Shown here: positions 18,001 through 24,045 of the stretch, piece by piece | How positions within the stretch are numbered: the first letter of the stretch is position 1 | Layout: each line of letters opens with the position of its first letter | Assembly: GCA_001683905.1 (NCBI GenBank) | Contig: LXQK01000027.1 | Span: 1-54,251, forward strand | Reading direction: 5' to 3' | From: Marivirga sp. ANT-B6 | GTDB taxonomy: Bacteria > Bacteroidota > Bacteroidia > Cytophagales > Cyclobacteriaceae | DNA length: 54,251 nucleotides | The notes under the pieces: generated by a model | The model's database searches: none | What the model saw: the letters and a program-made list of their open reading frames with translations, nothing else | What the model was told of the DNA's origin: nothing | Made by a program: the position numbers and the translations under genes

Positions 18001-18756
18001 CTATATGATGTTCACGATATACTTGATAAATATACCTGAAACGACAGCCATAGCAAAACTTAATAAGGTGCCTATTAAGATGTATTCAGCCTCTTTTCGG
18101 TCTTTATTTCCTTTAATTTCGTTGAAGCGCAAAATCGATTTTGAGGCGATCAGGAAACCAATAAATTCGTACCTGCTAAAAAGTATGAAGGTAATAATTA
18201 AAAACCTTTCAATTCTGCCAATCCATTTACCCGCATCATTCAAACCTTTTATTTCCTCCTGGTTGAGATATTCAATTTCTTCCCGCCACCGTGCGGTTGA
18301 TTTTGCAATTAGAAATCCTGTAGGCCATATGACGATGATATAGGTCATGGCTATGGCCCAGCCTGTGGTGTGGTTGAGCGCATTTTCTAAAAATGCGTAC
18401 ATAGATGCTTCTGCTCCTGTGTAGACGACCCAGGCGAGCAGGAGCATCCCCAGATGTAGAAACTGGTCGATAATAAAATTTCTGGTATTATCTTTCTGGT
18501 ACGACTTCCATATATCGATTGCCAGGTGGGTGATCATTATAAAAAGAGGTAAAAAGATATGCAGCCAATCTGCTAAAAGCAGATAGGTGAGCCCACCTAC
18601 TACCAATGCATGAAAATAAAGATATTTTGATTTTACTTTGTTACGGACGCGCTCTATAACCCATTTATCGGGTTGCAGTATAAAGTCAGCTAATAAGTGA
18701 GCAATGATAATCCTCACCAGTATCAATACGTCTTCCTGGGTAAAAAATTGGTGCAT
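18001..18756 (-). CDS. DUF3307 multi-pass membrane protein
   Basis: LLADFILQPDKWVIERVRNK...YLYFHALVVGGLTYLLLADW...ITHLAIDIWKSYQKD: DUF3307 hallmark; start overlaps satD stop (TAATG). Confidence 0.88.
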   Translation of the reverse strand: MHQFFTQEDVLILVRIIIAHLLADFILQPDKWVIERVRNKVKSKYLYFHALVVGGLTYLLLADWLHIFLPLFIMITHLAIDIWKSYQKDNTRNFIIDQFLHLGMLLLAWVVYTGAEASMYAFLENALNHTTGWAIAMTYIIVIWPTGFLIAKSTARWREEIEYLNQEEIKGLNDAGKWIGRIERFLIITFILFSRYEFIGFLIASKSILRFNEIKGNKDRKEAEYILIGTLLSFAMAVVSGIFIKYIVNII

Positions 18757-19424
18757 TATTGCGCTAGTTTTTGGATGATGAGGCTTTTAAACCGCTTTAA
18801 AAAGTTGTCAATGGCAAACCAGCCGGCACCTTTAAGTCTCTGATTCACGGCTGCCTGCGTAATATGCAGTTTATCGGCCATGGCTTGTTGTGTCAGTCCT
18901 TCTATCTGCAATAGTACTACTTCTGCCTGAGCGCTCGACCATTTTTGTATAATGATATCTGCCAGCGGGCAAGCGACAGCCAATTCCTGGTCTACTTCTT
19001 CCCAAGGGGTTTTAATCTGCAACCACATATCACCCGTCATCTGGTCTAATATTGGCCCCGATCTTCTATAGGCGATTCCGTCGCCCTCTGCACCGGTTTC
19101 CGACAAATAGGCTATCTCCCCTAGTCCAACTGCAATTCTTGCATCCCATAAGTCTTTAAGTCCCACGTCGACACTTTTTCTGAGGGTAGCCCGAATGATG
19201 AGTGATGCGAGTAAGGCATCTTCAGGATTGGCTAATACACCTTGAAAACTGTCGCCTCTATAGATTGAAAACGGAGCGATTAAGTTACTGCTGTTCAGGA
19301 TTTTATCTGCATTAAAAAAGGAGCTTTTCAAATCTGCCAGCAATTTTTTCCGTTGATCTTTCCCGATGCGTGAGGAGTCTACTATATCGCCGGTTAGTAC
19401 TGCGTATACCTTGGGAATAGCCAT
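18756..19424 (-). CDS. SatD family protein, cyclase-like N-terminal part plus C-terminal HTH
   Basis: YAVLTGDIVDSSRI, FSIYRGDSFQGVL, ARIAVGLGEIAYLSETGAEGDGIAYRRSGP; C-term LTQQAMADKLHITQAAVNQRLKGA helix-turn-helix. Confidence 0.85.
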   Translation of the reverse strand: MAIPKVYAVLTGDIVDSSRIGKDQRKKLLADLKSSFFNADKILNSSNLIAPFSIYRGDSFQGVLANPEDALLASLIIRATLRKSVDVGLKDLWDARIAVGLGEIAYLSETGAEGDGIAYRRSGPILDQMTGDMWLQIKTPWEEVDQELAVACPLADIIIQKWSSAQAEVVLLQIEGLTQQAMADKLHITQAAVNQRLKGAGWFAIDNFLKRFKSLIIQKLAQ

Positions 19425-19459
19425 AATTTTGTTGCTTAAAAACGCAATGTATGTAAAAA

Positions 19460-19538
19460 TTATAAGCTTTCAGACTTATAATCATATAATATAAGCCTAA
19501 TACCTTATAAATACTACTTATAAGGCTATAAACTTATA
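19460..19538. repeat. Iteron-like array of six TATAAG/CTTATA sites in the satD promoter region
   Basis: TTATAAG 19460-19466, CTTATAA 19475-19481, TATAAG 19490-19495, CTTATAA 19504-19510, CTTATAAG 19517-19524, CTTATA 19533-19538; spacing about 13-16 bp. Confidence 0.85.
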
Positions 19539-19549
19539 CCAAGTTACTA

Positions 19550-21391: not shown

Positions 21392-21787
21392 TTATTGTTT
21401 TTTTCCTGGCAAGTCCGCTTTATCCACATTCGTTTCTGGCATAGCGCCATGTTCCTTCAGGTAAGGCTTAAATTCTTCAATAATGGTTTTTTCCCAAAAC
21501 AGTACCCTGTTGCGAAATGCGGCACGCGCAATAACATGTGCGGCCACTGGAGAGGTAAGCAACATAAAAAGAATGATCGTAATGGATTTATTCATGATCA
21601 CGACTTCATTAAAATAAATGGTGATACCCGTGACAATAAATCCTATTCCCAATGTAGCTGCTTTTGTGATGGCAGACATGCGGATATAAAAGTCAGGCAA
21701 ACGAATAATACCTACAGAAGAAATGACGAGGAAAATAACCCCGATATAAATGAATATTGCACTTACTATCTCAACCCAGCTTTCCAT
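21392..21787 (-). CDS. mnhG: Na+/H+ antiporter subunit G
   Basis: FIYIGVIFLVISSVGIIRLPDFYIRMSAITKAATLGIGFI; last gene in Mrp operon. Confidence 0.93.
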   Translation of the reverse strand: MESWVEIVSAIFIYIGVIFLVISSVGIIRLPDFYIRMSAITKAATLGIGFIVTGITIYFNEVVIMNKSITIILFMLLTSPVAAHVIARAAFRNRVLFWEKTIIEEFKPYLKEHGAMPETNVDKADLPGKKQ

Positions 21788-21788
21788 G

Positions 21789-22049
21789 TTATTTGTTTAG
21801 ATAATAGGCAAATGACATAGCACCTAAAAACGAAATCAGACTTAAGATAATGGCCACATCCATCACGGAAGTGTTGTCTGTCAGCACTGCGTATATGGCT
21901 GTAATGCCTATGATATTAGCCGAAAAAAGATCGAAAGCCGTGACACGGTCTGGCAGCGTGGGGCCCTTAAAAAAGCGGATCATCACCATGATCAGACAAA
22001 TACTGATGACGCTGATAGCAACTATTAGAGATATATGGAATGCATTCAT
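21789..22049 (-). CDS. mnhF: Na+/H+ antiporter subunit F
   Basis: IRFFKGPTLPDRVTAFDLFSANIIGITAIYAVLTDNTSVMDVAIILSLISFLGAMSFAYYL. Confidence 0.94.
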   Translation of the reverse strand: MNAFHISLIVAISVISICLIMVMIRFFKGPTLPDRVTAFDLFSANIIGITAIYAVLTDNTSVMDVAIILSLISFLGAMSFAYYLNK

Positions 22050-22537
22050 CGTGTTATGGCTAGTAATTTTTTTTCAAAACCGTTTTTGATCTCCATTTTC
22101 AGCCGTTCTATGTCGCCATCAATGATATATATAGCATGTACATAAAGTATTTTTTTATCCTCCGATACATCAATACTTAAAGTTCCCGGTGTTAGCGATA
22201 TTAGATTTGCCAAAATAGTTATCTCAGCATCGGTATTGGCATCTAGCGGTAAAGCAATAACGCCGGGCTTCATATAATGAATTGGTGTGATAATGTCATA
22301 GGCAACCTTTAAGCTTGCCACAATCAACTCCTTTAGAAAATAGAAGAAAAAGCTCACCACAAGTGGTATTTTCTTGAAATAACTTCTATTGAAGAAAAAG
22401 ATGCAAAGCCATAAAACAAAGAAAGCGGCTAAAAATGTTAATGCTGCAGAAAGCGCATGATAGGGAACCTCTACCATTCGAAAAAACAAAGAGGTAAAGG
22501 TGATCGATAAGAGGAAGTGCACGATAAAAGTCTTCAT
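22046..22537 (-). CDS. mnhE: Na+/H+ antiporter subunit E
   Basis: FFFYFLKELIVASLKVAYDIITP...ANLISLTPGTLSIDVSEDKKILYVHAI. Confidence 0.94.
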   Translation of the reverse strand: MKTFIVHFLLSITFTSLFFRMVEVPYHALSAALTFLAAFFVLWLCIFFFNRSYFKKIPLVVSFFFYFLKELIVASLKVAYDIITPIHYMKPGVIALPLDANTDAEITILANLISLTPGTLSIDVSEDKKILYVHAIYIIDGDIERLKMEIKNGFEKKLLAITR

Positions 22538-24045
22538 TTGCGTAAGATAACTTTAATATAATTATCCCTATTGAATAATTGCTCTGCAGCTTGAACCGAG
22601 AAATCAAGAAATGGCTCAGCATAAAACCCCATGGCTACGATGATAATCGTAAGCAAAACAACGGGTAAGATCAATAACCTGTTTAACCTCAAAAATGATG
22701 TCTGGTTATAAAATATCTTTTCTGACCCTTCCCCATCGGGTGCTTTTTTCCAGAAGACCTCGTTCCATATTTTAGTGATATAGATAATGGATAAAGCACT
22801 TACCACCAAAGCCACACCCACGATTATAAAGTAGTTGGATGCCACCGCAGCTTTAATCAGTAGAAACTTAGCCCAAAATCCTGATAAAGGGGGAACTCCT
22901 GTAAGCGAAAAAGCCGATATAATGAATAAAAAGGCGATAAACGGGAACTTTGCGTAGATACTGCCTAGCTTTTTGAGCTTGAAAGACCCGGCCGCTGCAT
23001 ACACTACCCCACTGATTAAGAACAAGTTGGTTTTTACCAGCATATTATGAATGATAAAGTAAACAACTGCTGCAATGGCCAAAGGCGTATGAATGGCAAG
23101 CCCCATGATCATATAGCCGATTTGGCTGATTATACTGAAAGATAATATTTTCCGGAAATCATTTTGGGCTATAGCACCAAAAACACCAACAAACATCGTA
23201 AGCCCTGCAATAACGAAAAGGTAGGGCTGCAAATAAGGCACTTCTGAAAAAAAGATAAGTGTAAAAAAGCGGACCAGAACGTATACACCCACTTTTGTAA
23301 GCAATCCACCAATGATTGCTGTTATAGCGCTTGGAGGAGTATGGTAAGCAGCAGGCAACCAGAAGAACAAGGGAAATAACCCTGCTTTAATGCCAAAACC
23401 CACAAGAAAAAAGATTGCAGCCAACGTCACCAGGCCTTTATCAGCAATCTCTGGTAATAACAAAGAAATCTGGGCCATATTTAATGACCCTGTTAAGCCG
23501 TAAATAACACCGATACCAGCCAAAAATATCGAGGAAGCCAGAAAATTAATAACCAAGTATTTAACAGAGCCCTCCAGTTGGTTTTTAGTTCCTCCCAATG
23601 AAAGCAACACAAAGCTTGACATGAGCATTACCTCAAACCAGACATACAAATTAAAAATATCACCAGCAAGCAAAGCACCGCTGATCCCAAACAACAGAAA
23701 CATTAAAATAGGATAAAATCCATATTCCTTTCTCTCCAGATTGATGTTCGGGATGGAGAAAATAAAAACGAAAATACCTAACAGGCTGGTGGTTAGCAAT
23801 AGACCAGCACTTAAAAGATCGGCTACTAAAGTAATGCCAAAGGGTGCCGGCCAGTTGCCGATCTGCATAACCTGAATGCCATGCAGCCATACTTCTCGTA
23901 GGAGGAATGCGGAACCCACCAAAAGTAAAAAGCTGCCTGCCAAAACAATCATCCTTTGCCCATTGATGTTTTTCCAGCTTAGAAGGCAAAAGATAGCCGC
24001 AAAAAGAGGTATAAGTAAAGGTAAGATTACGAGAACCCCCATCAT
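22534..24045 (-). CDS. mnhD: Na+/H+ antiporter subunit D
   Basis: ND2/ND4-like antiporter: YVWFEVMLMSSFVLLSLGG...KAGLFPLFFWLPAAYHTPPSAITAIIGGLLTKVGVYVLVRF. Confidence 0.95.
   Translation of the reverse strand: MMGVLVILPLLIPLFAAIFCLLSWKNINGQRMIVLAGSFLLLVGSAFLLREVWLHGIQVMQIGNWPAPFGITLVADLLSAGLLLTTSLLGIFVFIFSIPNINLERKEYGFYPILMFLLFGISGALLAGDIFNLYVWFEVMLMSSFVLLSLGGTKNQLEGSVKYLVINFLASSIFLAGIGVIYGLTGSLNMAQISLLLPEIADKGLVTLAAIFFLVGFGIKAGLFPLFFWLPAAYHTPPSAITAIIGGLLTKVGVYVLVRFFTLIFFSEVPYLQPYLFVIAGLTMFVGVFGAIAQNDFRKILSFSIISQIGYMIMGLAIHTPLAIAAVVYFIIHNMLVKTNLFLISGVVYAAAGSFKLKKLGSIYAKFPFIAFLFIISAFSLTGVPPLSGFWAKFLLIKAAVASNYFIIVGVALVVSALSIIYITKIWNEVFWKKAPDGEGSEKIFYNQTSFLRLNRLLILPVVLLTIIIVAMGFYAEPFLDFSVQAAEQLFNRDNYIKVILRK

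Follow-up and report, generated by a model that had tools for sequence, protein, structure and literature searches.

SatD and its membrane partner: a two-gene module behind a fixed-pitch palindrome array that SatD very probably reads

Several described systems come close to the gene pair analysed here, each in its own respect. The Escherichia coli regulator NanR, a member of the GntR family, acts on a (GGTATA)3 operator whose three repeats are bound cooperatively by three dimers, an interaction attenuated by a small ligand (PMC8012715). The array before satD is usually a triple repeat as well, and release by a ligand is what we propose for SatD, although NanR has a GntR fold, direct hexamer repeats, and a regulon of sugar genes, and has no membrane partner in a two-gene operon. 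The SatD family (PF16264) is named after the SatD of the Streptococcus mutans sat locus and includes the protein of our locus, but the S. mutans gene sits in a ylxM-ffh-satCDE cluster (PMC12077213). Class III nucleotidyl cyclases (Ma1120, Rv1625c, and the cUMP synthases) share with SatD the predicted fold and two near-invariant Asp residues at the metal-binding places, whereas SatD is fused to an HTH, has no family match at the sequence level, and appears not to conserve the residues at the catalytic Asn and Arg positions. Type II toxin–antitoxin systems resemble the pair in having two overlapping genes, the first coding for a likely DNA-binding autoregulator with a multi-site operator, as well as in their patchy distribution and the several insulated copies found per genome; by contrast, the partner of SatD is a membrane protein whose effect is presumed and which has no match in PADLOC. 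Judged by these comparisons, the working principle would be a variant of the autoregulated repressor–effector operon, set apart by a fixed pitch with free sequence, by the predicted cyclase fold, and by an exchangeable membrane half. In the literature, searched mainly through open-access papers and thus no proof of absence, we found nothing on the operator array, on the pairing of SatD with its partner, or on the SatD fold.

The stretch of DNA that we analysed, hereafter the window, comprises 54,251 nucleotides of Marivirga sp. ANT-B6 (contig LXQK01000027.1). Its satD gene (18756..19424, minus strand; 222 aa) encodes a protein that passes the Pfam model PF16264 (E 2.8e-13, 50.4 bits against a curated cut-off of 29). 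The start codon of the next gene (18001..18756, minus strand), coding for the 251-aa partner membrane protein, overlaps the satD stop in the sequence TAATG, just as had been described beforehand. The DUF3307 domain (PF11750; E 2.4e-24, 86.2 bits against a cut-off of 23) covers only residues 12–124 of the partner (18385..18723, minus strand), that is, its N-terminal membrane half, and is followed by a C-terminal two-helix domain (18004..18264, minus strand) with the motif series G-x-x-I-G-x-x-E-R, A-x-K-x-x-x-R, and E-Y-x-L-x-G-T-L-x-S, which matches no Pfam family at cut-off. The locus is set among housekeeping genes, and upstream of dnaB, at 21392-24045, lie genes that on sequence reading resemble subunits of Mrp-type cation antiporters. 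A conserved dnaB neighbourhood was rejected, dnaB lying upstream of satD only in the window locus, and comparison of the neighbourhoods of the collected loci revealed no third gene widely common to them. A known anti-phage defence system was rejected as well: the partner had no match among the PADLOC defence models and SatD only a weak one in its HTH region (E 0.015). No defence-island context was seen at satD loci, and the queries used retrieved neither SatD nor DUF3307 from phage records. Among the PHROG families, one of phage membrane proteins in the moron/host takeover category matched the DUF3307 half of the partner (E 3e-12).

All the TATAAG/CTTATA sites of the putative operator are found in the gap that separates the satD start (19424) from the dnaB stop (19550). 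A pattern search placed them at 19461, 19475, 19490, 19504, 19517/19519, and 19533, so that the six sites of the preliminary description were borne out, except that the first had been put at 19460; the full palindrome CTTATAAG that it reported among them is the 19517/19519 site (19517-19524). The six hexamers form three perfect inverted repeats of the form TATAAG-N8-CTTATA with an exact repeat of 29 bp, none of them assigned to a strand: the satD-proximal palindrome 1 (19461..19480), palindrome 2 (19490..19509), exactly 29 bp from each neighbour, and the dnaB-proximal palindrome 3 (19519..19538), which overlaps CTTATAAG. An exact search of the 3.6 Mb genome found three copies of this 20-bp inverted repeat, all in this array. 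The plain hexamer is not enriched window-wide (41 found against 38.3 +/- 5.9 expected), and seven of these 41 are packed into 78 bp. At 10.5 bp per turn, 29 bp correspond to ~2.75 turns and the half-site spacing of 14–15 bp to ~1.35 turns; therefore, the sites do not share one helix face and the array, although evenly spaced, is not phased as had been thought. A candidate Bacteroidota-type promoter (19455..19486, minus strand) can be read around palindrome 1, consisting of TATG (19486-19483), a gap of 20 bp, and TAATTTTT (19462-19455); as a whole it matches TTTG / TAnnTTTG weakly, and 76 aligned relatives have T-rich and TA-T-rich boxes at corresponding positions.

We scored upstream regions for the presence of such arrays as three tandem 6-bp inverted repeats within 180 bp, leaving free both the spacer (2–14) and the period (18–45). 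In a first set, made up of 138 satD loci drawn from the window genome's own family and phylum, 68 real upstream regions scored above the best of 4140 dinucleotide shuffles, none of which exceeded 32/36, and the period of all 68 was 28, 29, or 30. Scanning GTDB genomes brought in another 80 loci, and one further locus came from a viral scan; array geometry was the same in Balneolota, Ignavibacteria, Gammaproteobacteria, Verrucomicrobia, Spirochaetes, Chloroflexi, Calditrichota, and others. Over both sets, tandem inverted repeats with a period of 27–30 bp precede satD in 186 of 218 cases, against 2 of 629 control regions taken upstream of other genes at the same loci; since these controls are richer in G+C (0.42 versus 0.32 for the satD upstream regions), the shuffles were needed as a second control. 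With periods from 18 to 45 allowed, the 118 arrays scoring at least 32 have a period of 28 (70 arrays) or 29 (48 arrays). Three sites are found in 75 and four in 21 of 110 loci, and the arrays end a median of 15 bp before the start codon. The 28–29 bp pitch recurs on plasmids of the Halobacteria Halorientalis, Haloplanus, and Natronosalvus and of Agrobacterium and Sphingomonas, and among 80 further hold-out loci 67 had an array score of 30 or more. Twenty-four loci have a partner without an array call and six an array without a detected partner.

The proposal that the array is a conserved signature is thus upheld across many phyla, with one change: what is conserved is the architecture, namely two to four palindromes, usually three, at a 28–29 bp pitch, and not the sequence. 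Most homologues carry half-sites other than that of the window (TATCGG, TATCTG, TATCGT, TAGAAC, TTCAAC, GTTTCA, and others), and a conserved CTTATAA motif was rejected. Enrichment of this motif upstream of other satD genes, on the lack of which the preliminary description would have abandoned the idea, is a misleading yardstick that would have wrongly rejected the array, since half-sites vary. The survey it proposed of Bacteroidota and Firmicutes found the array kept in the former, while the latter were represented by a single plasmid locus of Aerococcus, where a SatD-like gene has no array. That gene (L247, Aerococcus tenax) is preceded, at a distance of 15 bp, by ribonuclease-domain and barstar genes, is followed by a DUF975 gene, and lacks the usual partner annotation. 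No array was detected either in the one Fusobacterium locus with DUF3307 that we examined. By eye, two of the three sites in the nearest relatives of the window SatD (L248-L250) retain the 29 bp pitch, with the first site farther off, and L248, L249, L250, L252, and L259 have two sites at 29 bp plus one displaced upstream at an irregular distance. In the vicinity of the module on an Agrobacterium pAt plasmid (L225) are genes for an antitoxin and for a nucleotidyltransferase-HEPN protein. Second SatD copies lacking both partner and array occur in genomes G064 and G122 (L011, L016) and G097 (L095) and at L094, and are possibly regulators with changed jobs.

The half-site differs between genomes but is largely identical in all arms of one array, and modules residing in the same genome differ in it (TATCTG and TTGTAA in G102, TATCAT and TGAAAT in G125, TTCAAC and TATCGT in G361). 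For loci of the TAxxxx type, dereplicated to 65, we computed the mutual information between all SatD columns and the half-site positions. Position 4 of the half-site gave its strongest signal with residue 195, position 5 with residue 192, and position 6 with residues 183, 195, and 191; an outlier at position 3, residue 118, is supported by very few sequences. In the AlphaFold2 model, residues 191, 192, and 195 belong to the recognition helix of the HTH (residues 190–199, QAAVNQRLKG; 18828..18857, minus strand). In 76 loci, E/D195 goes with C at position 4 (26/26) and Q195 with A (14/15), while at position 5 A192 goes with A (17/18), T192 with G (9/9), R192 with T (4/4), N192 with T (5/6), and S192 with G (25/34). 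Chemically, the pairings Gln–A and Glu–C are both familiar. The predictions were fixed before we fetched 80 hold-out loci from genomes new to the analysis, and in these E/D195 again specified C (6/6), Q195 gave A in eight and T in two of ten cases and never C, A192 specified A (15/16), and T192 specified G (9/10). Overall, position 4 was predicted correctly in 24 of 29 cases (baseline 0.55) and position 5 in 35 of 56 (baseline 0.36). The residue code is partly weak, as in the hold-out G195 (T in 3/13) and S192 (A 14, G 10, T 5) leave the base unfixed. L254 and L255, two loci that are ~42% identical to the training set, combine A192 and Q195 with the half-site TATAAG, as in the window.

How much of this covariation reflects common descent can be judged in several ways. 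Half-site similarity correlates about equally with recognition-helix and N-domain identity (0.31 and 0.32), and a partial Mantel test of half-site versus recognition helix given N-domain identity yielded 0.19, a value reached by none of 2000 permutations, which contain no tree model of relatedness. Among pairs with distant N-domains (<40% identity), prediction of the half-site from the helix exceeds the average only slightly, and supported pairs were too few for a tree-based independent-pairs test to give a verdict. A stronger argument is that relatedness is common to all SatD columns, yet the helix residues rank first. The broad alignment (A1) contained no stretch conserved enough for collection scans. 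Because the half-site tracks recognition-helix residues 192 and 195, SatD is very probably the binder of the array, and its C-terminal HTH very probably the reader, as first supposed; covariation and, for the clear residues, the hold-out prediction speak for it. The gene overlap and the operator architecture are directly visible, and it is from this covariation that we infer autoregulation.

The rest of SatD is predicted to adopt a cyclase-like fold (residues 6–138; 19011..19409, minus strand) placed ahead of the HTH, in an AlphaFold2 model of high confidence (pLDDT 93, pTM 0.89). Its best Foldseek matches in the PDB are class III cyclases (Ma1120, guanylate cyclases, and a cUMP synthase), with modest scores (best E 1.4e-4; target TM-scores of 0.4–0.6, 0.58 for the best match), and no cyclase family matched SatD at the sequence level in Pfam, NCBIfam, or the PDB. 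Among its near-invariant residues (D13, S17, G57, D58, Q61, R96, G102, and G116), D13 (98%) is located where strand 1 ends and D58 (97%) within the hairpin of strands 2 and 3, a topology in which they would be the equivalents of the metal-binding Asp pair of cyclases. The region of the transition-state Asn and Arg, placed without a structure-based residue alignment, contains no conserved Asn and reads GxA[FY]xx[SA][GR]. Catalysis by SatD appears doubtful because the residues at these positions seem not to be conserved, and the domain is probably a nucleotide sensor rather than a proven enzyme; ligand sensing is plausible, at weak to moderate strength.

A partner ORF directly follows satD on the same strand in 130 of 138 loci of the first set and in 70 of 81 of the second, in agreement with the operon of satD and a membrane gene initially suggested; the operon is self-contained. 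The idea that DUF3307 is its constant membrane part did not hold: the domain is missing from partners in other phyla, which have a different membrane half, and was rejected as the defining partner domain. What remains constant is an unnamed C-terminal domain, ~75 residues long and predicted to form two helices, which carries charged residues (GxxIGxxER, AxKxxxR, EYxLxGTLxS) and for which no Pfam model reaches its cut-off. Searched alone, this domain had matches in 72 of 150 family genomes, and 18 matches without a recorded SatD, once fetched, all had a SatD match upstream, one of them fragmentary and one at a contig end. The pairing is near-obligate and holds from both sides. Partners of only about 105–150 aa also occur, and in a number of loci (L075, L069, L098, L227, L228, and L232-L246) short partners correspond roughly to the C-terminal domain alone, mostly together with a SatD of the LGDEFQ type. 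Because these short partners hold little else, the C-terminal domain would seem to be the effector part. The DUF3307 half has His/Asp motifs in its helices (HLLADF.LQ and DQ..H), and the partner fold had no significant match in the PDB.

We propose that satD and its overlapping membrane gene are a self-contained two-gene module in which SatD dimers bind, through the C-terminal HTH, the three tandem palindromes of the satD promoter; adjacent dimers would touch, hence the fixed 28–29 bp pitch, and together they would shut the promoter of their own operon. Occupation of the cyclase-like pocket by a small ligand, a nucleotide or another, would alter this binding and free expression of the partner, which would act at the membrane via its constant C-terminal domain and be harmful when unrepressed. 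To this explanation as a whole, SatD as a ligand-responsive autorepressor of a membrane effector, harmful partner included, we give a probability of roughly 60%. Its parts differ in strength. Binding of the array by SatD itself is strongly indicated by the sequence comparisons, whereas cooperativity, deduced from the fixed pitch, is moderately so. Repression is likewise moderately favoured over activation: when 76 arrays are aligned, the proximal palindrome is directly preceded by a T-rich box, and a TA-T-rich one starts where the palindrome ends. The two resemble the -33 and -7 elements of Bacteroidota, and such promoter-like flanks make repression the likelier mode. Harm by the free partner is weakly suggested by the published essentiality of satD in Streptococcus pyogenes, where the gene is essential by TnSeq in the strains tested, yet present in only 178 of 249 genomes (PMC11323703), as expected of a gene restraining a harmful neighbour.

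SatD could also bind the array as an activator, or as a stress-tuned autoregulator of an ordinary envelope or acid-tolerance operon, with the partner as a harmless membrane protein such as a transporter or enzyme. Links to acid tolerance and to protein translocation have been described for the S. mutans sat cluster, which fructose raises 2-3 fold (PMC12077213), the window locus has its housekeeping surroundings, and the His/Asp motifs of the DUF3307 half could belong to an enzyme. We nevertheless regard this as rather unlikely, since the proximal palindrome is placed where it would block the promoter and since half-sites that diverge widely, even between modules of one genome, suit the insulation of repressors, while a harmless partner fits poorly with a satD that is essential but accessory in S. 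pyogenes (PMC11323703).

The remaining alternatives take the array away from SatD. Regulators often share operators, and another, unlinked one might read the palindromes with SatD as a bystander; this is improbable in view of the covariation of the half-site with residues 191, 192, and 195, partly confirmed on new loci, of a perfect palindrome found nowhere else in the genome, and of arrays that accompany satD in other phyla and on plasmids of archaea. The palindromic units, ending so near the start codon that parts of them may be transcribed, could instead fold as RNA hairpins (attenuators or processing sites) in the satD leader. This is more improbable still, because hairpins demand neither a fixed 28–29 bp pitch nor six equal arms nor covariation with an HTH, and an RNA element was rejected for want of any Rfam match. 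The region is AT-rich and the plain hexamer is at its expected frequency over the window, but an origin by chance in AT-rich intergenic DNA or by old tandem duplication can practically be dismissed: the shuffles, the neighbouring upstream regions, and the recurrence in independent phyla exclude it, the array stands out equally in genomes rich in G+C, those of haloarchaea among them, and a recent duplication would have left the spacer bases alike, whereas they differ.

The autorepressor reading would join SatD and DUF3307, two families known only by name, into one testable system. Its operator is known base by base, and the partial residue-to-base code names mutations that should switch specificity. 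It may also explain how satD in S. pyogenes can be essential and accessory at once. More speculatively, and with odds that we would place against it, satD and its partner may be a cross-domain, self-insulating module in which a nucleotide-sensing protein of cyclase fold, assembled on DNA at a fixed pitch, restrains a toxic or protective effector; if so, operator and recognition helix would diversify together and several modules could coexist in a cell without cross-talk. Apart from this speculation, the module would offer a clean natural case in which a protein and its operator evolve together under one geometric constraint, the same in bacteria and in archaea.
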